Below the pieces are notes generated by a model. That model worked only from the letters and a program-made list of their open reading frames with translations, had not been told where the DNA came from and made no database searches. The translations under genes and the position numbers were made by a program. A stretch of 20,121 nucleotides of DNA from a virus. Of this stretch, positions 3,112 to 19,657 are shown piece after piece. The stretch's first letter is position 1. Each line of letters starts with the position of its first letter. The stretch is taken from the IMG/VR virus record IMGVR_UViG_3300025687_000444, positions 1 to 20,121 of that record, one strand, 5' to 3'.

Positions 3112-3130
3112 AAAAGTTTAACTTACCAAA
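3099..3130 (-). promoter_or_regulatory. Bacteroidota-type promoter for the reductase operon
   Basis: On the minus strand TTTG (3130-3127) is followed after exactly 20 nt by TATATTTG (3106-3099). This matches the Bacteroidota primary sigma consensus TTTG, 19-21 nt, TAnnTTTG. The site is in the 68-nt gap between the UDG and reductase genes, and the -33 element overlaps the last codons of UDG. It is the only intergenic match I found by eye. Confidence 0.65.
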
Positions 3131-3827
3131 TAATTTCTCGTTTATTTCTTGCTGAAAGTTCAATATTAAATTTTGAAAAACATTGACTTCCAATAAATGG
3201 ATTTGAACCTTTTGTTGCACCCAATGGACTTGGATGTGAAGTTTCAATAAATCCATGACTTTTATTTGTAATATAATCTCTAAATGAAGATGCGTGTCTA
3301 CCCCACATCATCCAAATTATATTATCTTGTTTGTTTAATATATTAATAACTTCAAGAGTAAATCTTTTCCATACTTTAGTATGAGTATCTGGTTGATGTT
3401 CTCTTACAGTTAAAGCTGTATTAATCATTAATAATCCTTGTTCAGCCCAACTATATAATGATAAATCACTTAAACGTTCTATATTTTTTCCAGCATATAT
3501 ATCGTTATTTACTTCTTTAAGTATATTTCGTAACGATGGTGCAGGTGTAATACTGGTTGCATTACTAAAACATAATCCATCATATTTACCATTATGATAT
3601 GGGTCTTGACCTAATATAACCCCTCTTACATTATTAAGAGGGGTTATTTTAAAGGCTGTAAAAATATCCTTATTTTGTTTAGGATATACCATATAATTTT
3701 GTCGCTCTTTACGTAAATACTTTCCCAATTTTTGGAAATATTCAGATTCAATTAACGGTTTTAATGCTTCATACCAATCTAAACCTAAATAATTTATTAG
3801 TTTGACATTATTTGTCGAATGTTTCAT
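3123..3827 (-). CDS. ung: uracil-DNA glycosylase, family 1
   Basis: A 234-aa enzyme of normal family length that excises uracil from DNA. Motif A is GQDPYH at 73-78 with catalytic Asp75. GLCFSNA at about 84-90 is the uracil pocket, and SHPSPLGATKG at about 197-207 carries the second catalytic His198. It starts at ATG 3827, overlapping the upstream unknown gene by 20 nt. Encoding UDG implies that the phage genome does not use deoxyuridine. It may clear misincorporated uracil or act with the neighbouring nucleotide-pool enzymes. A 13-bp perfect palindrome lies inside the gene just before the catalytic motif. Confidence 0.95.
   Translation of the reverse strand: MKHSTNNVKLINYLGLDWYEALKPLIESEYFQKLGKYLRKERQNYMVYPKQNKDIFTAFKITPLNNVRGVILGQDPYHNGKYDGLCFSNATSITPAPSLRNILKEVNNDIYAGKNIERLSDLSLYSWAEQGLLMINTALTVREHQPDTHTKVWKRFTLEVINILNKQDNIIWMMWGRHASSFRDYITNKSHGFIETSHPSPLGATKGSNPFIGSQCFSKFNIELSARNKREIIW
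3616..3647. repeat. 13-bp perfect inverted repeat inside the UDG gene
   Basis: ATAACCCCTCTTA and TAAGAGGGGTTAT are perfect complements separated by 6 nt. On the minus strand they encode the stretch just before GQDPYH. This GC-rich stem stands out in AT-rich coding sequence and would form a strong mRNA hairpin. On the plus strand it is followed by TTTT and could act as an antisense terminator. Confidence 0.7.
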
Positions 3828-4572
3828 TTGTTATTTCCATTTTGTTATATAAATCCAGATGTTCGGGAATTTTTACATCTAGTACTTTTTCTATTTCTTT
3901 TTTCAACTTTTCATCTTTATATAGAATTTTTGTAATAAAACTTGATTTACTTAATTCATTTACATTTATAATTCTTTGTTTAGCTTTATCGCTAATTTGT
4001 GAGTATTTACCTTCAATTATAAGGTCTACATCATTTTGGAATTCTTCTGGAATTTTCAGTTTATAAATTGTATATGAATAATTAGGTTCTATTACTTTAA
4101 CAAATTCTTTTATATTTTTAAAAAATTGTTCTATTTCTTGAAAAGATTTACTATCAATATATTTAAATACAATATATATGTATTTATTATCAATATTTTC
4201 TTCAAGATTTATACGTAAATAAGCATTAATAAGATGATAATATACAATATCTGTATATTTATGACCCAATAAAGGATAAATATAAGTAGTTGTATCATTA
4301 ATTAAAGCTTCTAGTAAATATATTGCGTTATTTTCAAACATAATATAATTTACATAAAACTTATAATCTTTATTCTCAACATTTAAAAGAATATGATCAC
4401 CTACATTGATAATATATTCATCATCAAATGTTATCTTAACAATTTGATTATCTTTTTGTGATAATTTAATATGCACTTTAGGACTAACTATTTGTAATTT
4501 TTTCCACATAAATTGTCGAAAATTGATAACTTTACCATTACGTATTGTTATTGTTTTTACAAATTGTTCCAT
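3808..4572 (-). CDS. 254-aa hypothetical protein
   Basis: No family is recognised with confidence. The N-terminal half (about 1-110) looks beta-rich, with alternating hydrophobic and charged residues (KTITIRNGKVI, NQIVKITFDDEYIINVGDHI). The C-terminal part (about 170-250) is helical and contains a segment around KIPEEFQNDVDLIIEGKYS that resembles a tail seen in hypothetical phage proteins. There is no signal peptide or membrane helix. It overlaps the FEN gene upstream by 16 nt and UDG downstream by 20 nt, so it is translationally linked to DNA-repair enzymes. Its role is unknown. Confidence 0.8.
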   Translation of the reverse strand: MEQFVKTITIRNGKVINFRQFMWKKLQIVSPKVHIKLSQKDNQIVKITFDDEYIINVGDHILLNVENKDYKFYVNYIMFENNAIYLLEALINDTTTYIYPLLGHKYTDIVYYHLINAYLRINLEENIDNKYIYIVFKYIDSKSFQEIEQFFKNIKEFVKVIEPNYSYTIYKLKIPEEFQNDVDLIIEGKYSQISDKAKQRIINVNELSKSSFITKILYKDEKLKKEIEKVLDVKIPEHLDLYNKMEITNETFDK

Positions 4573-5360
4573 TCTTCAATTATTTCATCACTCAAAGGAT
4601 TAAAATCATCCTCTGTAATAGACATAATAGGTATACCTAGTGTATGAAAATCATCTTCGGTTTTTAGTAGTTTAATAAGATTAAAATTTATATAAAACCA
4701 ATATATTCCTAAAGTTACATCATAATGTTTGATATATTCATTTAAAACACAAGAATAATAATTTTCAACTTTACATTTAGCTAATATTTTTTCTGCATTT
4801 TTAATACCAACACCCGGTATACCTTTTATACCATCGGTTGAATCACCCATTAGTGTCTGTAACCATAAAAAATGATTAGCATCTACTTTACTAGTGTTTA
4901 CCCATACTCCTTTTTGTATTGTTTCGATTTTTGTTTCTTCATCTATATTTTTTCGTATTCGATAATCAAAGTGTGTACCAGATATTTGATGTAGTACATC
5001 TTTATCTGGTGAACACACTATTGAATCAGGGAATAACGTTTTGGTATACGCAACAGCATCATCAGCTTCTATTTGTCGAATAATTTTTGCATTATGCTCC
5101 ACAATTAAATAATGCTTTAATACTTTAGAATAATTTTTTGTTTTATTCTTATATATATTTCTTAAAGCTTTATATTGAGGATATAATTTATGTCTAAAAT
5201 ACAATCCGTCTGATAAAAAAATAATGTAATCTGTTGCACTAGTTTGTTGAAATATCTCGACAAGTCTCTGTTCTAAACTTTCAATAGAATCTTCAATAGT
5301 TTCTTTTGAAGCATAAAACGTTAATGAGTCTCCATCAATGATAATTCTTCTTTTTCCCAT
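4557..5360 (-). CDS. 5'-3' exonuclease / flap endonuclease (FEN, T4 RNase H type)
   Basis: A 267-aa nuclease expected to remove RNA primers and 5' flaps during replication. Visible family features are the N-terminal IIIDGDSLTF with metal-binding Asp9 and Asp11, a segment DGLYFRHKLYPQYKALR typical of the helical arch, QIEADDAVA with the acidic metal cluster, VCSPDKDVLHQ, and the helix-hairpin-helix-type GDSTDGIKGIPGVGIKNAEKIL that binds the DNA backbone. Start is ATG 5360, inside the end of the preceding unknown gene (40-nt overlap). The compact polymerase in this genome has no 5' nuclease domain, so this gene would supply that activity. Confidence 0.9.
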   Translation of the reverse strand: MGKRRIIIDGDSLTFYASKETIEDSIESLEQRLVEIFQQTSATDYIIFLSDGLYFRHKLYPQYKALRNIYKNKTKNYSKVLKHYLIVEHNAKIIRQIEADDAVAYTKTLFPDSIVCSPDKDVLHQISGTHFDYRIRKNIDEETKIETIQKGVWVNTSKVDANHFLWLQTLMGDSTDGIKGIPGVGIKNAEKILAKCKVENYYSCVLNEYIKHYDVTLGIYWFYINFNLIKLLKTEDDFHTLGIPIMSITEDDFNPLSDEIIEEWNNL

Positions 5361-5812
5361 AATATTTGTGTATATTTATTATTTAAATATTCATAATAAG
5401 ATGTTGGGTTAATTTCATTTTTATTTTTTATAATAAAGGATTCCAATGTTGGAAAATGTAAGAACCTTTTCAAATTTAAATTATTCATTACATTTTTTAA
5501 ATCCAATGGAATATCTTTAATTTGTAAATGTTTTTGAAAGTCAATTTGTTTAATAGGTATTTGTAAATCAAGAAAAAATTCATTATAAATTTCGGTTATA
5601 TACTGAATTACATAAGAATTATTTTCATAATATAAAATATTATTATAATATACCATTATTGGACGTTTTGCTTGATAAAAAAACCCATTAATAAATTCTA
5701 TCCTATATCCAAAGTCATAAGTGATATTTTCTCTGAAAGTATAACCATATTTTACTTCTGGAATAACTGAGTTTGGTGCTAAATCGTTATTTCTTTTAAA
5801 TATAGTTGACAT
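5321..5812 (-). CDS. 163-aa unknown protein at the end of the Ubl cassette
   Basis: Starting at ATG 5812 (MSTIFKRNND) gives 163 residues. A longer frame to 5938 exists but would lie entirely within the E1 gene, so the inner start is preferred. The gene overlaps the E1 gene by 17 nt and the FEN gene by 40 nt. It is rich in Tyr, Phe, Ile and Asn, with a beta-looking N-terminal half (IPEVKYGYTFRENITYDFGYRIEF) and a helical C-terminal half. No catalytic motif or family is recognised. The tight coupling to E1 makes it a candidate fifth component (adaptor or target-recognition factor), but it could equally belong with the repair genes downstream. Confidence 0.75.
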   Translation of the reverse strand: MSTIFKRNNDLAPNSVIPEVKYGYTFRENITYDFGYRIEFINGFFYQAKRPIMVYYNNILYYENNSYVIQYITEIYNEFFLDLQIPIKQIDFQKHLQIKDIPLDLKNVMNNLNLKRFLHFPTLESFIIKNKNEINPTSYYEYLNNKYTQILWEKEELSLMETH

Positions 5813-6521
5813 GTTGTGGAAAGTCCACAGTTTTTGGTGTTGCAATGTGTAACGTTTCATGTAGTAAATCAAGATTTTTAGTAATAAAAAAAGGAACTTC
5901 TCTATAATTATCATCACCAACTGCAAGATTTGATGCAATATTTACTACAATTGCTACAATTAATGATGCAATTGATGCAGCACAATGACTTGTTGCTTTT
6001 GTACTACAAGATTGTTCCGGTACTTCATCATCATTAAATAAATAATTTTTATATAAATCATGTGTTGTACCATCTTTAATAGTAAATATTTGATATGTTT
6101 CAGCTTCCATGCGACCATCAATAAAATATGTATTGTAAGGTAAATAATCATATAGATGCTTACGTGCTAACATATTGTCAGTAGCATTAATAACAATATC
6201 AAATGATGATATAAAAAATTTACTAAGTTCTTGTATCGAGTTTCTATAAGTATCTACATTATATTGTGAAAAACTTTGAACAATATTTTTTAACGCCATA
6301 GTCTTTGAAAACATTATATCTTCATCACGATATAATTGTCCACCTAAATTGGTTTCATCAACAGTATCGTTGTCAACTACTGATAATAAATAAGGTGACA
6401 TACGACTTAATAATAAAGTAGTCCAACTACCAATACCACCGGCTCCTACCACAAGAATATTTAATGTTTTAATCTTATTAAACCATTCCAAACCGCTGAA
6501 TCTTAATCTATTTTGTTCCAT
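5796..6521 (-). CDS. E1-like ubiquitin-activating enzyme (ThiF/MoeB family)
   Basis: A 241-aa ThiF-fold protein expected to adenylate the C-terminus of a ubiquitin-like protein and pass it on. It shows the Rossmann motif GAGGIGS (26-32), VVDNDTVDETNL (48-59), Lys73 (FSKTMALKN) and INATDN with Asp115. It also has an N-terminal Arg-containing helix (NRLRFSGLEWF) like the one that donates Arg14 in MoeB. Cys172 and Cys180 (SCSTKATSHC) are the candidates for a catalytic or transfer cysteine. The canonical NxxRQ arginine is replaced by glycine (NLGGQ). Start is taken at ATG 6521; the longer frame begins with TTG. It overlaps the JAB gene by 14 nt. The length matches minimal bacterial E1s. Confidence 0.88.
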   Translation of the reverse strand: MEQNRLRFSGLEWFNKIKTLNILVVGAGGIGSWTTLLLSRMSPYLLSVVDNDTVDETNLGGQLYRDEDIMFSKTMALKNIVQSFSQYNVDTYRNSIQELSKFFISSFDIVINATDNMLARKHLYDYLPYNTYFIDGRMEAETYQIFTIKDGTTHDLYKNYLFNDDEVPEQSCSTKATSHCAASIASLIVAIVVNIASNLAVGDDNYREVPFFITKNLDLLHETLHIATPKTVDFPQHVNYI

Positions 6522-7497
6522 AAGGTATGTGTATATTATATTCAATTTCTCCAATAGCTCGTAGTATAATACTTGTTGTATTATATGATTTGTGGTGTTG
6601 TAAAATATTTTTTATATATTGAAATATTTCAGCTCTTTCCTTTTCTTTTATATCACCAATTTCTTCTTCATACCACTTTTCCCAATTATTACAAATACTT
6701 TCAAAATATAATTGTTCTCTCACTGAATTATCTTCAAAAATAGCATCTTCAAATTCAAATTCGCTGAATGCAAACAATTCTGAAACAGTATCGGTAATAT
6801 CTCTATTTCCGTTTACAATTATACGTTTTAAGAAATTTAAATTGCTTAATTTTCTCACGGGTGGGTTTTTAACACCAGAAGTTTTAGGTAAAGGAAGTTT
6901 ACCCTGTTGACCCGGATAATAAGTTCTACTATATGCAACTTCTGATGGAGCATTAGCTAGTAAATTTTCTAAACGTTCAATAACATCAGCATGAATAGTT
7001 TCTTCATATTCAATTTCTAATGAACTTATAAGTACATCAGGTTCAATATTAAAAGAAATATTTGATCCATTACGTGTTAATGTTGCAGTTACTTGATCTG
7101 GTTTTATAGCTACTTTAGCAACGTACCTAATTTGAAAATCAACAACTAATGATAAATAAACATCATAATTTTCTGCATTTTCTATAATTTCAGATTGATC
7201 TACATTTGAAAATGATGCACCCATTGAATGGTGAGTATGTACTAATCCTTCTTTGCAATCTTCAGCATCTGGAAAAATATCATATGCATTTAAGATTTCA
7301 TTTGAATATTCAAATTTTGTCGAAGCCGATGTTCCAACATCCATTGGATAAATATATTGGGGAATAAATTTACAATCTGGTGTAAGTAATTCACCCTCTA
7401 TTTTATAAAATAACGTACCACTCCATTCAGTCTTACCGACAATTCTGTGGAACATGTTTACAAATTCTTGAAATTTGTTTGTTATAAGTAATTTCAT
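6508..7497 (-). CDS. JAB/JAMM metalloprotease (deubiquitinase-like)
   Basis: A 329-aa protein whose first ~140 residues are a JAB domain, with Glu24 (KTEWSG) and the complete zinc motif HxHx7SxxD at His87, His89, Ser97 and Asp100 (HTHHSMGASFSNVD). Such enzymes in bacterial Ubl operons trim pro-Ubl C-termini or remove Ubl from targets. A ~190-residue C-terminal region follows, with helices rich in Glu (FEFEDAIFEDNS, WEKWYEEEIGDIKEKERAEI) that I do not recognise. The ATG at 7497 overlaps the TGA of the E2-like gene (ATGA) and the gene overlaps E1 at its end, so the three enzymes are translationally coupled. Confidence 0.88.
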   Translation of the reverse strand: MKLLITNKFQEFVNMFHRIVGKTEWSGTLFYKIEGELLTPDCKFIPQYIYPMDVGTSASTKFEYSNEILNAYDIFPDAEDCKEGLVHTHHSMGASFSNVDQSEIIENAENYDVYLSLVVDFQIRYVAKVAIKPDQVTATLTRNGSNISFNIEPDVLISSLEIEYEETIHADVIERLENLLANAPSEVAYSRTYYPGQQGKLPLPKTSGVKNPPVRKLSNLNFLKRIIVNGNRDITDTVSELFAFSEFEFEDAIFEDNSVREQLYFESICNNWEKWYEEEIGDIKEKERAEIFQYIKNILQHHKSYNTTSIILRAIGEIEYNIHIPYGTK

Positions 7498-8636
7498 GAG
7501 TTATTTATTAAGTATAATAATTTTTCTTGTATTGCGTTAATAGTACTATTAACAAATTTTATTGGTACTGTTGTACTAACATTGTGAGATGGTGTAATAA
7601 TAATATCATCATTAATGATTTCTTTTGGTTTAATTTTCTGACCTTTAAAATACAACTGGTATGTTCTAATTGAATTAGGTACTATTTTGAAACTTTTATT
7701 ATCATATTTATTACTATTTAAAAATAGTAAAGTTGACCTATCAATAAGATTTGGTTTTGTTTTTAATAAATGATTAATATTATAAAGAACATGTTCATAA
7801 TCAACATCAAAATAAATAGTTTTATCGTCTAATTTTTCTGGCTTAAAACCTAAATATTTTGGATAATAACTATTAATGTAATACGAACTAATTTGATTTG
7901 AAAATTCAAATAGATCACGCATTATTTCGTTATTGTACAAACTTCTTATGTGTCTATATGGCCCACCTTCTTCACTTTGGTAATTAACCAAAGAATCTAT
8001 TAAATATAATAAATCTTCAAAAGCATCCGGTATTTCATCATTATCTTCTAATAAATTACAAGATTTGAAAATATCTAATGTAACCTGTAATGTAGTTGAC
8101 CCTAAACAAAAACTGTCATTTTGACCACGTAAGTGTGGATGTAAAAACATACTAGAAGAATACTGTTGTTCTGTAAATCCAGCTTGGTATCCATATAATC
8201 TAGTAGCATGTGTTCTATTTAATGTATGAATTATGTCTGCAAAAACATATAAATCATAAATATTTGTATACAATTTTTCATCCTCACTACTTTTTACTTT
8301 TATTTTTGGATATCTGATAATAAATTTACTACCAAATTGAGCAGCTAATTTAAAATATTCATACATATTACAAATTAACGGATTTGGATAAATATCAAAA
8401 TTATCCCCATGTATTTCTGTACCTAATTTTAATAATTTAGCATAAGTAATTCGATAATTTTGATAATTTTTATATACTTGTTTTAACCGACTACCAATAA
8501 TTGGTAAACTTTGTATATGATGTCTTTTTCCAAAATAAGTATACGATACAGGGCGATAATTTCTTAAATCGTTTATTGAATCTGTAAATGCATATATACC
8601 ATGTCTATCTGCACTAAATAAAAATGTAGTTTCCAT
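7494..8636 (-). CDS. E2-like ubiquitin-conjugating protein
   Basis: A 380-aa protein. Start is ATG 8636 (METTFLFSADRHG); the longer frame begins with TTG inside the terminator hairpin. Strands around FIIRYPKIKVK (105-115) and TNIYDLYV lead to LHPHLRGQNDSFCLG, with HPH at 166-168 and Cys177. In eukaryotic E2s the HPN motif precedes the catalytic Cys by 10 residues from its His; here the distance is 11, and HPH...CLG is the usual form in bacterial E2-like proteins. Cys177 is therefore the proposed thioester site. The ~165 residues before it and ~200 after it are not assigned. Context (Ubl upstream, JAB and E1 downstream) strengthens the call, which rests on motif plus neighbours. Confidence 0.75.
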   Translation of the reverse strand: METTFLFSADRHGIYAFTDSINDLRNYRPVSYTYFGKRHHIQSLPIIGSRLKQVYKNYQNYRITYAKLLKLGTEIHGDNFDIYPNPLICNMYEYFKLAAQFGSKFIIRYPKIKVKSSEDEKLYTNIYDLYVFADIIHTLNRTHATRLYGYQAGFTEQQYSSSMFLHPHLRGQNDSFCLGSTTLQVTLDIFKSCNLLEDNDEIPDAFEDLLYLIDSLVNYQSEEGGPYRHIRSLYNNEIMRDLFEFSNQISSYYINSYYPKYLGFKPEKLDDKTIYFDVDYEHVLYNINHLLKTKPNLIDRSTLLFLNSNKYDNKSFKIVPNSIRTYQLYFKGQKIKPKEIINDDIIITPSHNVSTTVPIKFVNSTINAIQEKLLYLINNS

Positions 8637-8645
8637 AATAAAAAA

Positions 8646-8668
8646 GGGAGCACCTTTATAGTGCTCCC
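8646..8668 (-). terminator. rho-independent terminator between Ubl and E2 genes
   Basis: GGGAGCAC and GTGCTCCC form a perfect 8-bp stem with a 7-nt loop, followed on the minus strand by a run of T residues (TTTTTTATT). The stem begins 18 nt after the Ubl stop codon. The E2 ATG at 8636 lies directly behind the U-tract, so E2 expression would depend on read-through or a separate start. Confidence 0.85.
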
Positions 8669-8685
8669 TCAAATTAAATTAAGTT

Positions 8686-9210
8686 TTACAATCCTAACCG
8701 TTTCTTAATATCGGCATAGTCTTCTTCTAATGCAACTAATTCATGATCAATTACCTCATTGTCCATTTGATCAACAAGTTTACGCAATTTAGCTAAACTA
8801 TCGTTCATGTTGTTCAAAATTCCGTTAATTTCAGTTTTTGGATCAGTTGATTTAGCATCATCTGCTTCTAAAAGTGCAATCATATTTTCAGTTGTACCAT
8901 ATGTTCCATTATTATGTGGAGATACAACATTTTCACGAGAATTACATTCTTGACGTAATTCACTATGACTCATACTTGTGTAATCAACACCAGCTTTGAT
9001 TTTTACTGGATACAAAAATAAAGAAAAGGGAGTTGTTGGTAAATGAGCTTCATCATCTTCTAATGTTACTCTGGTTTGACGTACAATTGCCTTTTGATTT
9101 GAGAAATTAACATCGGTTAATTGAGCTTTCAATTCACCAAAAGTTGTTGCTTCAGTTTCAACGGTTGATACATTACCACCGTCCATACGAATTTTTACAG
9201 TTCGTTTCAT
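8686..9210 (-). CDS. ubiquitin-like beta-grasp protein with C-terminal extension
   Basis: A 174-aa protein. Residues 1-74 follow the beta-grasp order: strand KRTVKIRM, strand VSTVETE, helix TFGELKAQL, strand KAIVRQTRVTL, then DDEAHLPTTPFSLFLYPVKIKAG. The last segment resembles the end of ubiquitin (LHLVLRLRGG), with Ala73-Gly74 in place of Gly-Gly. A further 100 residues follow. The part around MSHSELRQECNSRENV to MIALLEAD is vaguely SAP-like, and residues 130-174 look like a coiled coil. E1 substrates need a free C-terminal Gly, so processing after Gly74 by the JAB protease is a natural hypothesis. It has its own strong terminator. Confidence 0.7.
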   Translation of the reverse strand: MKRTVKIRMDGGNVSTVETEATTFGELKAQLTDVNFSNQKAIVRQTRVTLEDDEAHLPTTPFSLFLYPVKIKAGVDYTSMSHSELRQECNSRENVVSPHNNGTYGTTENMIALLEADDAKSTDPKTEINGILNNMNDSLAKLRKLVDQMDNEVIDHELVALEEDYADIKKRLGL

Positions 9211-9214
9211 TTGT

Positions 9215-9685
9215 TTATGTTAAATTAAAAATTAGTTTTCGATCATTTAAATTATCTATTTGATAATATTTGATACATAATCCATTAATATCTTTTACTG
9301 TATCTTTAGGAATTAATTTTTGTTCCTGTAATACATCATTAAATAATTTTATCCAAATCCATTGATTATCTATATCCCATGTTGGTATATAATCCTCTTT
9401 TGGAGGTTTCCAATTGATTTGTCCTTTTATACGTCTTACGTTTCCATAGTTAATGGGAGCATAAAATTCTAAATTTGTTATAAAAGGATATGTAATATTA
9501 ATAGATTGTGGCAATCCTTGTATTAAGTAATTATGTAAATTACTAACAGCTGTTGCCCTTTGAAATCTACCTAGTGTACCATTATAAATGGCTTGTCCAG
9601 ATATTTTTATATATTTATTTGGTGCTTTTTTATTATTTGTAATAGCTACATGTGTAGGAAATTGATTATATATTATACGTTCCAT
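9215..9685 (-). CDS. RusA-like Holliday junction resolvase
   Basis: A 156-aa protein. The core PTWDIDNQWIWIKLFNDVL (about 101-119) reproduces the RusA signature DxDN followed by a Lys and a further Asp: Asp104, Asp106, Lys113, Asp117. Downstream acidic residues (Asp128, Asp132) could provide the third catalytic Asp. RusA enzymes are small dimeric nucleases that cut four-way junctions, here presumably in phage recombination or in resolving replication intermediates before packaging. It overlaps the zinc-ribbon gene by 13 nt and ends 4 nt before the Ubl start. It is longer than E. coli RusA (120 aa) because of an N-terminal extension. Confidence 0.75.
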   Translation of the reverse strand: MERIIYNQFPTHVAITNNKKAPNKYIKISGQAIYNGTLGRFQRATAVSNLHNYLIQGLPQSINITYPFITNLEFYAPINYGNVRRIKGQINWKPPKEDYIPTWDIDNQWIWIKLFNDVLQEQKLIPKDTVKDINGLCIKYYQIDNLNDRKLIFNLT

Positions 9686-9867
9686 GTTAATAACTTTTTA
9701 TTAAGTCTTTTATCAGGGTCTGGAACTAAATAACGATATTCATTTTCACTATGAATACATCCACAATTTTTACATATAATAACTTTAATATGTATTTTTC
9801 TTTCTATAAGATTAATACTATTACAACGTAAGCATCCATCATTATTAGCTTTAATACGATCAAACAT
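9673..9867 (-). CDS. 64-aa zinc-ribbon protein
   Basis: Two CxxC knuckles, Cys12/Cys15 (CLRC) and Cys32/Cys35 (CKNC), are 16 residues apart, as in a zinc ribbon. The C-terminal part is basic (DPDKRLNKKLL). It overlaps the primase gene by 8 nt and the RusA-like gene by 13 nt. The upstream primase lacks recognisable zinc ligands in its N-terminal region, so this protein could supply a zinc module in trans; this is speculation from position. It could also be a transcription-related zinc ribbon. Confidence 0.75.
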   Translation of the reverse strand: MFDRIKANNDGCLRCNSINLIERKIHIKVIICKNCGCIHSENEYRYLVPDPDKRLNKKLLTWNV

Positions 9868-10891
9868 ATTTGCTTAATTCAGAATGAACAAGATTGACAA
9901 ATTCATTAGAACCATATTTGAATCTAAAATCACTTGGGTCTTTTTCTGTATTGTCAGGGGTTAATAAGTATGGTATATTATATTGTTCTGAATATTTAAT
10001 AGCATTTCGTAAACCGGGATTATCCAATTTACTGAAATCATTATCATACCATATAAATATATGTTTCCATCTTGTTTGTAATTTTTGAAATACTTTTTCT
10101 GGTATAAAAGTTTCTTCATTGTTTGGAGCAATACTGTAAATATCATTACAATTACACATAATTGTACCTACATCTTTAAAAGATGATGTAATTATTAGTA
10201 TATTTCCACCAGATTTAGGCAACATATCCCAACCTTGTACTATAGTTGAATCAACATTACTTATCCATTTAAAATCTTTATTATACGGTTGATATATTTT
10301 TCTTCTGAATATATTATCATTCCAATAATAATTAAACGAATATGAAAGTTTGTCAGCTATGAACATATGGTTCATTATTTTATGATTAGTTAACCAAAAA
10401 TAAGATATAGGCTCTATATTTGCCTGTTTTAACCATTTCAGGTTTATACCATATTTACCATACCAAAAATCTTTATCATCCGTTGTCCATTTTCTTGATT
10501 TTTTACGAATAATAGATGGTTTAATAATAAATGTTTTTGGTTGATATTTGGATTTTTGAGCATTTTCCTTTATTAAATCTACATCTAATGGTTCTATAGT
10601 ATTTAAATCAAAATCTCGTCTTATTTTTTCTAAAGCAGAACGAAAATCTAATCCATACTTTTCCATTACATATGAATAACAAGTTAATGCACCTTTTACT
10701 GCAAAATCTTTATATAGTAATACATTATTATAATAAAATAATCTACAGGAAGGATTTTTATCTTTTCTTAATTGTGACTGAAATGGAATTTCAACATCAA
10801 TTAAATCTTTAATATAGTGATTAAATATATCCCAATGTGTAATATATAATTCAATTGATTCTGTACTTAAGGGAAGTTTTAAATCATACAT
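9860..10891 (-). CDS. DnaG-like Toprim primase
   Basis: Counting from ATG 10891 the protein is 343 aa. A longer frame starts at GTG 10912 inside the terminator hairpin and is not preferred. The N-terminal part (about 36-90: SQLRKDKNPSC, KDF, FRSALEKI) resembles the fold of the primase zinc-binding domain but lacks the CHC2 ligand set. The Toprim part shows NILIITSSFKDVG (230-242), where the usual Glu is replaced by Ser-rich sequence, IFIWYDND (278-285) with the two Asp, and EKDPSD (317-321). Such variants occur in phage DnaG-like primases. It would lay RNA primers for the polymerase, working with the DnaB-like helicase. It is coupled to the zinc-ribbon gene downstream. Confidence 0.75.
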   Translation of the reverse strand: MYDLKLPLSTESIELYITHWDIFNHYIKDLIDVEIPFQSQLRKDKNPSCRLFYYNNVLLYKDFAVKGALTCYSYVMEKYGLDFRSALEKIRRDFDLNTIEPLDVDLIKENAQKSKYQPKTFIIKPSIIRKKSRKWTTDDKDFWYGKYGINLKWLKQANIEPISYFWLTNHKIMNHMFIADKLSYSFNYYWNDNIFRRKIYQPYNKDFKWISNVDSTIVQGWDMLPKSGGNILIITSSFKDVGTIMCNCNDIYSIAPNNEETFIPEKVFQKLQTRWKHIFIWYDNDFSKLDNPGLRNAIKYSEQYNIPYLLTPDNTEKDPSDFRFKYGSNEFVNLVHSELSKYV

Positions 10892-10894
10892 ATT

Positions 10895-10918
10895 AAAAAG
10901 GGGGAATTTCACCCCCTT
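10895..10918 (-). terminator. rho-independent terminator between SSB candidate and primase
   Basis: AAGGGGG and CCCCCTT form a 7-bp stem with a 7-nt loop, followed by TTTTT on the minus strand. It starts 9 nt after the stop of the gene at 10928. The primase ATG at 10891 is 3 nt beyond the U-tract. A GC-rich stem in such AT-rich DNA is a clear signal. Confidence 0.85.
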
Positions 10919-12209: not shown

Positions 12210-12938
12210 TTAAATATAAATTTTGTCCCAATAATAATTAAACTGTCCATCTTTTGAGTCTAACATTATAAAGGACTTGTTTTTTAAATGTTGTGGTCTT
12301 GCACCACATATTATATTTTCTTGAGTTATAAAACTAACCCAAGTTTGTGAGGCATCTTTACCCATACGATAAACATACCCAATTGCATCTGCTTCAGCAG
12401 ATATAATAGATTTTAATTTACCAGTTAAATCTAATTCCATTGAAACTAGTTCTTCACCTTCTTTTTCAACGTATTTATCCTTTAAATGACAGATTAAAAT
12501 TAAACGCTTACTTACTGCTCGAAAATTATTAATAACTTGTTTATAAGCTTCTCTAATATATAAATAACCAGCTCCTTGTGGTAATGTTCGTAAATCATCA
12601 CCTGTATATTTTTTAGCTATCGGTAATTTTTTATACATACTAACAGCAAGAGGCATAACCATTTCTTCTAATTTTGTACCAGTATCTATAACTATTTGAT
12701 CATATAAATCTGGTTGAGCAGCTAAAGCTCTACGAATCTCTCCTAATTCGGATAGATTTGATGCTTTAATTTTCATCATATTGAAATAATCAGTACCATT
12801 TTCTAGATCAATAGTTAAAGTATTAGGTAAACCCGCAATCAGTTGTGTTTTTCCGCTTTTGGGTTTACCATATAATATTAAAAATCTAGGATTTACTTCA
12901 CTAGCTAGTACAATTTCTGTTGGCAATTCTATTCCCAC
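12210..12938 (-). CDS. RecA-fold ATPase, Sak4-like recombination protein
   Basis: A 242-aa AAA/RecA-type ATPase with Walker A GKPKSGKT at 24-31, a following LTIDLENG (41-48) and Walker B QIVIDT (81-86). It has the compact single-domain layout of phage Sak4-like proteins, which help single-strand annealing and recombination together with an SSB. The start is GTG 12938: an in-frame TAG lies four codons upstream, and no ATG occurs before the Walker A motif. Its first 38 nt overlap the end of the glucosaminidase gene. The candidate SSB genes directly downstream support the assignment. A generic AAA_24-type ATPase is the alternative. Confidence 0.75.
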   Translation of the reverse strand: MGIELPTEIVLASEVNPRFLILYGKPKSGKTQLIAGLPNTLTIDLENGTDYFNMMKIKASNLSELGEIRRALAAQPDLYDQIVIDTGTKLEEMVMPLAVSMYKKLPIAKKYTGDDLRTLPQGAGYLYIREAYKQVINNFRAVSKRLILICHLKDKYVEKEGEELVSMELDLTGKLKSIISAEADAIGYVYRMGKDASQTWVSFITQENIICGARPQHLKNKSFIMLDSKDGQFNYYWDKIYI

Positions 12939-13470
12939 TTTGTAATTTTTCTAAATTAATTGATTTCAGCAAAGCTACATATTTTCCATTCTCCGCATAT
13001 CCAACATGGCTTAAAAATGCATAATAATTGTCTATATTATCAATAGACATAATAGTTTTAAAGTAATTCTGCCATAAGACATAATCTTTTACACTATCTG
13101 TCCAATGACGAAATTTAGCATGACCTAACGCACGACCAATTGCTGTAGTTGGTCTAATTTGTGGTTTTTTCATACCAAATAAATTATTATGATGTACAAA
13201 TAAGTCGCTTTTAAACCAACCTGATTCTAAAACAGCTTGGCGTATTACAACTTCTATTTCCTCAATTTTCAATAAATCCATATATGTAACAAGATTATTA
13301 TATGAAAATTCGGAATGTTCTAATTGGTTTATATGTTCTAATTTTAATCTTAATTGATAATAAGTATCACTTTGTTTACTATACTCTATTTGATCACTTA
13401 ATGATAAATTTGGAGCATAACACCACAAAGTAGTGAATATTAACAATACTACTATTATTATTTTTTTCAT
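12901..13470 (-). CDS. secreted glucosaminidase-type endolysin (GH73-like)
   Basis: A 189-aa protein with an N-terminal signal or anchor sequence (MKKIIIVVLLIFTTLWCYA), so the product acts outside the cytoplasm on peptidoglycan. The catalytic region shows AVLESGW with Glu82, followed by HHNNLFGMK (93-101) and FRHWTDSVKDYVLWQNYF, the typical order of the mannosyl-glycoprotein endo-beta-N-acetylglucosaminidase family. Cys17 in the leader is not preceded by a good lipobox (Trp at -1), so lipidation is doubtful. It is oddly placed between the replicative helicase and the recombination ATPase, and overlaps the latter by 38 nt. A signal-bearing lysin could reach the periplasm by Sec rather than by holin. 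Confidence 0.85.
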   Translation of the reverse strand: MKKIIIVVLLIFTTLWCYAPNLSLSDQIEYSKQSDTYYQLRLKLEHINQLEHSEFSYNNLVTYMDLLKIEEIEVVIRQAVLESGWFKSDLFVHHNNLFGMKKPQIRPTTAIGRALGHAKFRHWTDSVKDYVLWQNYFKTIMSIDNIDNYYAFLSHVGYAENGKYVALLKSINLEKLQSGNRIANRNCTS

Positions 13471-18179: not shown

Positions 18180-18482
18180 TTATTGAAATAATCCAATTAA
18201 TGCTTTAACCCAACTAGATATTTGTAAAAGTAATAAAATTATTGTTAATATCCAAAGTAATATACCAGAAAATGTATAAATATTTTGTTGATTTTTAACA
18301 TTTTGTTCATGTTCTTCATCAGAACCCCACCTATCTTTTTTAGGTAATGGTAAATTTGGAATTATTTTTAATATTTCTACAAATTGTGGGTATTTTTCTT
18401 TATCTATTTTTTCAAGTATATAATTATTTAAAAGTATAATACCTAGAATAAAAAATAGAATAGCCATTATAAGAAATCCCAT
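18180..18482 (-). CDS. 100-aa two-helix membrane protein, SPFH neighbour
   Basis: Hydrophobic segments lie at residues 3-22 (FLIMAILFFILGIILLNNYI) and about 72-98 (FSGILLWILTIILLLLQ...), joined by a polar loop with LPLPKKDRWGSDEEHEQN. Its ATG overlaps the stop of the SPFH gene, so the two proteins are made together and may interact in the membrane, in the way NfeD-type partners accompany bacterial SPFH proteins. No sequence family is recognised. Confidence 0.75.
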   Translation of the reverse strand: MGFLIMAILFFILGIILLNNYILEKIDKEKYPQFVEILKIIPNLPLPKKDRWGSDEEHEQNVKNQQNIYTFSGILLWILTIILLLLQISSWVKALIGLFQ

Positions 18483-19657
18483 TATTTCTTCTTTACTATT
18501 TCTTGCATCATTTGAATCATTAATGCATTCTCAATGCTAGACCCTCCTTTGCCATCAGAACTACCTACAACGAATTGTGGACCAACCCATTTAGACATAT
18601 GTTCTGCTACACCAATATCACGTCGTACATCAGCATCAATTTGATATTTTTCACGTTCAGATAATCCATCTGCAATACGTAATTCTTCAGCAATACCTTT
18701 GGCTACTTCGATTTTTTTAAACTTTTCTTGTTCAGCTTGTTTAGCTGCAAATTCAGCTACTTCAAACTTTTCTTTCGCTTTAGTTACTGCTTCAATCTTT
18801 TCAACCTCTTTAGTATATTGTGCTTTAGCTACATCTGCTTTACCTTGTTCTTCAGCTGTTATTGCATCTTGTTGTGCTCTAAGTGCTGCTTGTTTAGCAA
18901 GTTCTGTTTTCATAGCTTCATCTTTACGTTTTGCAATCATTTCCTCAACTTTATTATCAAAGCCGGGAACATCAATAACGCAAGATACAATATCACAACC
19001 TAATTCTTCTAGTCTATTTGGTTGCCTTAAAGGTTGACCTAAAGTATCATATACAATAACTGTGACTTGTCTAACTTCTGTATCACCAGTACTGTTTACA
19101 ATTTCTTGTCGATCTGATTTAGTTACATATGTACCATTTTCTAGTTGATCTTGTACAGCTTGTTGAAATAAAGCTAATGTTGTATATGCATCTTGAGCTG
19201 ATCTTAAATTTGCTCCAAGCTTAACAGCATTTTCTACAATAGGTACTACACCTGCACTAATAAAATGTTGATAACCACCTGCAAATTCTTTTTGTAAATT
19301 TATTAATTCTTGTTCCGAATTAGGTAACTGTATTCGAATTAATCCAGCTATTTTAGCTTTAGAACCATCATTAAAAATTACAGGTATTGAATCCTGATTT
19401 GCAGAAATATCACCTTCTTGTTGATCACCAAAACCCATAGTAGTTACTGCTCTATAAGTTTCAATATTACCAAACCATTGACCATATAAACCCGGAACCA
19501 TCCGAGCTGTCATTTCACCAGTAATAAATGCTTGTTTTACTTGATAATGACCTTGATCATTAGTTTCAAAGATTTTTGCTGACATAGCAATAATTGCTAT
19601 TGCTGCAATAATGAACAAACCTAGTGTCCATCGTTTTGCGTTTTTTGCTTTCGCCAT
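18482..19657 (-). CDS. SPFH/band 7 (prohibitin/HflK-like) membrane protein
   Basis: A 391-aa protein with one N-terminal membrane helix (about 11-27, TLGLFIIAAIAIIAMSA). An SPFH domain follows (about 30-230, beginning NDQGHYQVKQAFITGEMTARMVPGLYGQ). A long charged coiled coil, rich in Ala, Lys and Glu, covers about 235-345, and the tail ends in a Met-rich helix. SPFH proteins assemble into membrane-bound rings or cages that organise microdomains and control proteases. Several large phages carry a copy, but its role in infection is not established. The next gene, overlapping by a few bases, encodes a small membrane protein. Confidence 0.88.
   Translation of the reverse strand: MAKAKNAKRWTLGLFIIAAIAIIAMSAKIFETNDQGHYQVKQAFITGEMTARMVPGLYGQWFGNIETYRAVTTMGFGDQQEGDISANQDSIPVIFNDGSKAKIAGLIRIQLPNSEQELINLQKEFAGGYQHFISAGVVPIVENAVKLGANLRSAQDAYTTLALFQQAVQDQLENGTYVTKSDRQEIVNSTGDTEVRQVTVIVYDTLGQPLRQPNRLEELGCDIVSCVIDVPGFDNKVEEMIAKRKDEAMKTELAKQAALRAQQDAITAEEQGKADVAKAQYTKEVEKIEAVTKAKEKFEVAEFAAKQAEQEKFKKIEVAKGIAEELRIADGLSEREKYQIDADVRRDIGVAEHMSKWVGPQFVVGSSDGKGGSSIENALMIQMMQEIVKKK

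Follow-up and report, generated by a model that had tools for sequence, protein, structure and literature searches.

Bacterial ubiquitin-like conjugation is known mainly from anti-phage defense systems and from plasmid cassettes. The general design and the parts of such pathways were already laid out as operon types 6a–6e by Iyer et al. 2006 (PMC1779556), with type 6d corresponding to the PRTRC cassette of large plasmids. Here, we describe a phage-borne set of five consecutive genes encoding a ubiquitin-like protein (Ubl), an E2-like protein, a JAB/JAMM isopeptidase, a ThiF-family E1, and a fifth protein. They occupy positions 5321–9210 on the minus strand of a DNA stretch of 20,121 nt, which is the whole IMG/VR virus record IMGVR_UViG_3300025687_000444 (hereafter the window; positions count from its first letter). 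A previous reading of the bare sequence (hereafter the original prediction) had proposed such a cassette inside a replication operon, and all five open reading frames (ORFs) are indeed present at that place and on that strand, most of them overlapping as it had said (by 4 nt for E2/JAB, 14 nt for JAB/E1, and 17 nt for E1/fifth ORF). As a conserved module, the cassette recurs in crAss-like and Flavobacterium phages and is widespread in Steigviridae, and it probably forms a self-contained, phage-encoded system of ubiquitin-like conjugation and deconjugation.

Results

Conservation and distribution of the cassette

IMG/VR scans with the single E2 or ThiF sequence of the window found no relative, and alignments were needed as queries. 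We compared 108 loci, namely the window, three annotated phages, and 104 loci that E2 or ThiF queries had retrieved from IMG/VR. Because the order Ubl-E2-JAB-ThiF recurs in 96 of them and the other 12 are all cut by a contig end on the missing side, the cassette goes well beyond chance, and the conserved co-occurrence that had been set beforehand as a test of the original prediction holds. E2 and JAB genes mostly overlap across loci, and the remaining cassette genes are closely spaced. Since these loci had been found through cassette genes, we additionally made a survey anchored on the neighboring primase gene. It covered 50 loci whose downstream sequence spans 6.5 kb or more (48 from the scan plus phages phi14:2 and cr116_1), of which 14 encode all four genes, 28 none, and 8 only the Ubl tail described below, while not a single one encodes two or three.

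The E2-like protein is found in 74 records of a collection of annotated phages, chiefly Bacteroides crAss-like and Flavobacterium phages. Isolated phages with the cassette are PhiCrAss001 (gp76–79), DAC15, and Fpv. Among the named Crassvirales genomes that we opened, all cassette carriers belong to Steigviridae, and cr10_1 (Suoliviridae) has no cassette at the corresponding place. A full four-part pathway in a phage replication module had been called unusual; the full set is present, but its spread in Steigviridae means that the window is no one-off. Database labels for the crAss001 genes read “metalloprotease”, “thiamine biosynthesis protein, ThiF”, and “hypothetical”. A full-text search of the open literature found no paper that ties Crassvirales to ubiquitin-like conjugation by title or abstract, with subscription papers and supplements outside its scope so that priority is not certain; the main text of a large survey of crAss-like phages (PMC7886860) mentions none of ubiquitin, ThiF, JAB, MPN, or rII.

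Active sites of the JAMM protease and the E1

The calls of a complete JAMM protease and a ThiF/E1 enzyme stand up to closer inspection. With E24, an HTH at residues 87–89, S97 after seven further residues, and D100 after two more, the window protein has the entire isopeptidase motif E...HxHx7SxxD. These catalytic residues (E24, H87, H89, S97, D100) are 99–100% conserved in about 91 homologues, and all 11 matches among PDB sequences are CSN5 or JAMM1.

The E1 matches the Pfam ThiF family at 2.1e-28 and has the ATP-binding glycine motif G26xGGIG, K73, D115, and a catalytic-loop Cys172 (codon 6006–6008) that is invariant in 93 of 93 sequences. Its profile finds MccB as the best match in the PDB, together with UBA5, UBA1, the NEDD8/SUMO E1, ThiF, MoeB, and Cap2. 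In a quick tree with many weak deep branches, the phage E1s form one group (Shimodaira-Hasegawa-like approximate likelihood ratio test 88) separate from the ThiFs of PRTRC and of bacteria, which suggests a single old acquisition. At two loci (L047, 823–2961; L028, 10034–11863), the JAB and ThiF genes appear to be in two pieces with ca. 1 kb between them, perhaps due to homing-endonuclease or intron insertions.

A Ubl precursor with a separable tail

The 174-aa protein was correctly anticipated to adopt a beta-grasp fold. AlphaFold2, with 54 homologues as input, models strand-strand-helix-strand-strand-strand over residues 3–68 at a mean predicted local distance difference test score (pLDDT) of 90, i.e., the fold of a ubiquitin-like modifier. 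Against the PDB, Foldseek gives 17 hits with E ≤ 0.001; all of the 50 top-ranking hits listed belong to ubiquitin, ISG15, UBX domains, or further ubiquitin-like domains, or to complexes of these. A PDB sequence search with the whole Ubl profile returned mostly helical proteins, which match the tail. The layout of the protein comprises the beta-grasp domain (residues 1–68), a KIKAG stretch up to Gly74 (codon 8989–8991), and a helical C-terminal extension of 100 aa.

A Ubl modifier should have a glycine that closes its domain, either already exposed or uncovered by processing, and this residue is found at 101 of 101 Ubl loci, with Ser or Ala before it in almost every case. It is never C-terminal: because 1–217 residues (median 132) follow it in all copies, nine of which stop just 1–5 residues beyond, the Ubl needs trimming and every copy is precursor-like. 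The extension also exists as a stand-alone gene in 10 loci that lack E2, namely cr116_1 and nine loci of the scan anchored on the primase. Its Met lies at most a few residues from the post-Gly position in nearly all of them, with one locus having an additional upstream Met. The fused protein of PhiCrAss001 reads KIKSG-A-MSRAEAY, and the stand-alone gene of cr116_1 starts with MSRKELY. Because the tail exists alone with its gene start at that very point, the Gly is a real domain boundary, for which ubiquitin-ribosomal protein fusions offer a comparison. A SAP/HeH DNA-binding identity of the tail is hinted at by Pfam (SAP, E=0.037, 2 of 54 members) and is not claimed here.

The E2-like protein

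In an alignment of 66 homologues of the 380-aa protein, His168, Cys177 (codon 8106–8108), and Gly179 are invariant and His166 nearly so. Past the Cys, a Gly, a Ser, and a Gly are invariant, and the invariant His all precede it. The AlphaFold2 model (overall pLDDT 73, exceeding 90 for most positions between 100 and 190) has a core of a long helix, four strands, a loop with HxH...Cys, and two helices, i.e., the element order of E2 enzymes. Foldseek against BFVD leads to other phage proteins, including those of cr128_1 and another crAss-like virus.

Profile comparisons provide a chain of links: phage E2s match seven bacterial operonic E2s at E=1.7e-4 over 106 columns (score 37.4; maximum of 100 column shuffles 18.3), and the same bacterial E2s match PRTRC-B at 5e-4; unrelated families reach about 0.1 or worse (all pairwise E-values, not those of a database search). 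The last link is the identity of PRTRC-B with Pfam Prok-E2_D (2.9e-59). When compared directly, neither phage E2 with PRTRC-B nor phage Ubl with PRTRC-C gave a significant match, and Prok-E2_D is absent among the Pfam families matched by the 66 homologues. Motif, order of secondary-structure elements, and profile links nevertheless make the protein very probably E2-like.

Cassette or rIIA/rIIB between primase and uracil-DNA glycosylase

In cr116_1 (Steigviridae), rIIA and rIIB are found between the primase and uracil-DNA glycosylase genes (PHROGs, 7.6e-17 and 5.6e-35). Across viral loci, this slot contains E2 without rIIAB 125 times, rIIA without the cassette 16 times (15 with rIIB), neither of them 43 times, and both together never, with these numbers counting loci, near-duplicates and two views of one contig among them, rather than independent events. 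Nine of the 16 rIIA loci have the stand-alone tail. In T4, rIIA/rIIB are required against RexAB of lambda lysogens (PMC9391042). Because sister phages hold rIIA/rIIB in exactly this slot, the cassette may have its place in host takeover or counter-defense.

The primase–glycosylase slot of Cellulophaga phage phi14:2 (L203, 8031–12123) encodes a gamma-glutamyl cyclotransferase, an ATP-grasp protein, a COOH.NH2 ligase (phrog_3815, 1e-78), and an amidotransferase. This set may be a further module for modifying peptides or proteins that takes the place of the Ubl cassette.

Genomic context

The minus-strand replication operon of the window comprises a PolB-type DNA polymerase, a DnaB-like helicase, a Sak4-like AAA ATPase, the primase, a RusA-like protein, the cassette, and then a FEN-type exonuclease, uracil-DNA glycosylase, and a B12-dependent ribonucleotide reductase (Table 1). 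Of the proposed location between RusA and FEN, the FEN side is firm by Pfam and PHROG, but the RusA-like assignment is weak. The primase of the window has tblastn matches in crAss-like, Cellulophaga, and Flavobacterium phages. PhiCrAss001 has a like neighborhood composed of helicase, ATPase, primase, gp79, gp78, gp77 (metalloprotease), gp76 (ThiF), gp75, uracil-DNA glycosylase, Holliday junction resolvase, exonuclease, and ribonucleotide reductase. No structural genes were recognized on the fragment.

Table 1. Cassette genes (coordinates with ATG starts) and flanking genes in the window.
Feature	Position	Strand	Length	Basis of assignment
Ubl precursor	8686–9210	-	174 aa	AlphaFold2 fold, Foldseek PDB matches, conserved Gly
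E2-like conjugating enzyme	7494–8636	-	380 aa	H166-P-H168, Cys177, C-x-G
JAB/JAMM isopeptidase	6508–7497	-	329 aa	Full catalytic residue set
ThiF-family E1	5796–6521	-	241 aa	Pfam PF00899
Fifth cassette ORF	5321–5812	-	163 aa from ATG	Kept position, no family match
DNA primase (upstream flank)	9860–10912	-		phrog_12622 1e-35; tblastn to phages
RusA-like Holliday junction resolvase (flank)	9215–9685	-		Weak: phrog_1682 E=0.018
5'-3' exonuclease/FEN (downstream flank)	4557–5360	-		Pfam PF02739 7e-10; phrog_107 3e-43
Uracil-DNA glycosylase (downstream flank)	3123–3827	-		NCBIfam 1.4e-62, above cut-off; far slot border in relatives

Pfam and PHROGs assign no name to the Ubl, E2, and JAB, and the fifth ORF has no family match in Pfam, PHROG, or NCBIfam scans. 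An ORF of 140–444 aa fills this fifth position in other loci; the one in the window is not recognizable with a profile of the fifth-ORF family, which came from a permissive iteration and may have drifted. Besides the cassette, we observed a glucosaminidase-type lysin gene within the replication operon (12901–13470, between helicase and AAA ATPase). At 18482–19657, a 391-aa protein (phrog_11908, function unknown) is hydrophobic near its N terminus and has a long charged region; it may resemble a membrane scaffold.

Discussion

We are rather confident that the biochemistry of the cassette is one of conjugation. Speaking for the system as a whole are the recurrent order of the four genes and their all-or-none presence, the near-invariance of the Ubl Gly and of the active sites of the three enzymes, the ubiquitin-like fold model of the Ubl, the CSN5/JAMM1 matches of the JAMM enzyme, the profile links of E1 and E2, the residues to be trimmed from every Ubl, the stand-alone tail in relatives, and the mutual exclusion with rIIA/rIIB. 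In such a pathway, the JAMM enzyme would cut the Ubl precursor behind the conserved Gly of the K-[S/A]-G stretch, which would free the C-terminal tail. The E1 would adenylate the exposed Gly and then accept the Ubl on its Cys, from where it would move to the Cys of the E2 and on to lysines of target proteins without a recognized dedicated E3. The same JAMM enzyme could take the Ubl off again, and the fifth ORF may contribute specificity, to judge by its position alone. The role may then be the modification of host (or phage) proteins in takeover or counter-defense.

Several points weigh against this account. Foldseek with the E2-like model found no match and hence no E2 in the PDB, and two HMMER searches of PDB sequences with the whole E2 profile and its core also gave no E2, just weak unrelated matches; for the predicted 380-aa E2, motif, element order, and profile links speak in favor, and the structural comparison is silent. 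The E1 has Gly61 (6339–6341) in place of the Arg of the N-x-x-R-Q motif that is usual though not universal among E1s. This Gly is shared by 29 of 32 phage representatives, and Asn or Thr takes the position in some bacterial operons. The Pfam match still secures the family, but loss of the Arg in the phage clade may weaken adenylation. Neither an E3 nor a target is evident, and the rIIAB exchange is positional evidence for a part in takeover or counter-defense, not proof of it. We infer every catalytic step just like the E2 fold, the targets, and the purpose of the system.

A purpose in takeover or counter-defense is a tentative proposal that we would put somewhat below an even chance. As an alternative, which the original prediction had named along with host proteins and host defense factors as targets, the cassette could modify the phage’s own replication and repair proteins as a replisome switch, like SUMO or ubiquitin on PCNA, in line with its constant place beside primase and uracil-DNA glycosylase and with overlapping genes that imply co-transcription. 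However, relatives with homologous primase and glycosylase carry rIIA/rIIB or other genes and no cassette, so their replisome can do without it. The replacement by rIIA/rIIB favors takeover or counter-defense, and we regard the replisome switch as unlikely. Somewhat less probable still is a decoy or antagonist of Ubl-based host defenses such as Bil, Cap2-CBASS, or similar systems, with the JAMM enzyme stripping host conjugates or Ubl, E1, and E2 competing with the host pathway. PMC10097602 and PMC11153139 describe such host systems as acting against phages, rIIAB as a counter to RexAB (PMC9391042) occupies the same slot in relatives, and an E1 without the usual Arg would suit a decoy; yet the active sites of E1 and E2 are all kept invariant, which is unexpected for one.

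Sulfur-carrier or small-molecule chemistry ranks slightly lower again and seems improbable to us. The Ubl would then form a thiocarboxylate like ThiS/MoaD or a MccB-type nucleotide-peptide, e.g., to modify nucleotides or tRNA, with E2 and JAMM as accessories. This could explain why the E1 is a single-domain, ThiF/MoeB-like protein with MccB as its best PDB match, why the cassette sits among nucleotide and replication genes, and why bacterial sister operons encode ThiS-like Ubls. It would not explain why every complete cassette includes a JAMM with its full catalytic set alongside an E2-like protein whose Cys is invariant; moreover, no rhodanese or sulfurtransferase was recognized among the window proteins scanned, and the Foldseek hits listed for the Ubl are ubiquitin-like proteins, not ThiS. 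Finally, maturation of the tail as the main purpose, with the Ubl serving as a leader to be cleaved off, comparable to ubiquitin-ribosomal protein fusions, and conjugation as a secondary matter, would fit the independent tail gene beside rIIA/rIIB in relatives but is very unlikely given the nine Ubls with next to no tail and an E1 and E2 that would be superfluous.

The elements that are new here are a Ubl precursor whose tail stands alone in relatives and a slot that is held by either the cassette or rIIA-rIIB, never both. With a ubiquitin-like conjugation system used in host takeover as the starting point, one could speculate that it is interchangeable in function with rIIA/rIIB as a counter-defense or takeover weapon of crAss-like phages, with the tail as a shared adaptor that acts alone beside rIIAB and is a cleavable Ubl fusion partner in the cassette, though we consider this rather doubtful. 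The virus side appears to own a complete, reversible Ubl system in a prominent group of human gut phages. The culturable carriers PhiCrAss001, DAC15, and Fpv make its function directly testable, and the Gly boundary predicts a Ser-Gly remnant on lysines (+144.05 Da after trypsin) that one could look for when analyzing infected cells by proteomics. The exchange of cassette and rIIAB also offers a fresh way to approach the role of rIIAB, which is poorly understood.

Comparison with known systems

Among phages, the tail-assembly proteins TAPI and TAPK of lambda and T1 resemble the cassette in having a phage Ubl with a Gly boundary and a C-terminal domain as well as a JAB, but they come without E1 or E2 and belong to a tail module rather than a replication module (PMC1779556). 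Type II CBASS is similar in the E1 domain only, where the phage E1 resembles Cap2-type E1-E2 models; in contrast, Cap2 is a fusion of E1 and E2 that targets a CD-NTase, and no CD-NTase was recognized among the window proteins scanned. The Bil system (BilABCD) has the same contents of Ubl, E2, deubiquitinase, and E1. However, BilD is a two-domain pseudodimer of an inactive and an active adenylation domain (PMC11354881), unlike the single 241-aa ThiF domain of the phage E1, and the CEHH motif of BilB follows its Cys (PMC11354881), whereas the His of the phage E2 precede it. Bil as an anti-phage system and the phage-borne cassette also stand on opposite sides of the conflict.

The PRTRC cassette shares the order Ubl (C) - E2 (B) - JAB (A) - ThiF, albeit with extra genes between C and B, and its JAB (PRTRC-A) and ThiF are profile relatives of the phage proteins (E=7e-8 and 6e-17). 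Both also have a single Gly close to where the Ubl ends and C-x-G at the E2 Cys. They differ in that the phage ThiF scores 41.5 bits against a TIGR03736 cut-off of 144.75, that phage JAB, E2, and Ubl have no NCBIfam match (PRTRC A, B, and C models), and that no ParB or PRTRC D, E, or F family is found among the window proteins scanned. Further, PRTRC-B has Asn where the phage E2 has HxH before the Cys, the phage Ubl is not alignable by profile, and the carriers are plasmids in one case and viruses in the other. Tested against the hallmarks of PRTRC, Bil, and CBASS, the cassette belongs to none of them and, of these hallmarks, shows just the gene order of PRTRC.

Bacterial Ubl-E2-JAB-ThiF operons form another point of comparison (L109–L111, L114, and L185, from Myxococcota, Planctomycetota, Ignavibacteriota, and Bacteroidota). 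Four of them are compact operons on contigs of bacterial metagenome-assembled genomes (L109, 1–1860, cut before the Ubl; L110, 2237–6278; L111, 5820–8570; L185, 2909–6069). Their E2s have HPH...CxG (in L185 HPH followed by C-L-G) together with either long coiled coils or tails rich in Cys, and only a part of the proteins of these operons has a Pfam match. These operons differ from the phage cassette by ThiS-like Ubls that have GG or KG close to their end and by the long coiled coil in the E2; their sequences are far apart from those of the phages, whose E1s form their own group. What they share with it is the same gene order wherever the loci reach far enough, HPH...CxG in most E2s, and an E1 that likewise lacks the usual Arg (N-x-x-N-Q or similar).

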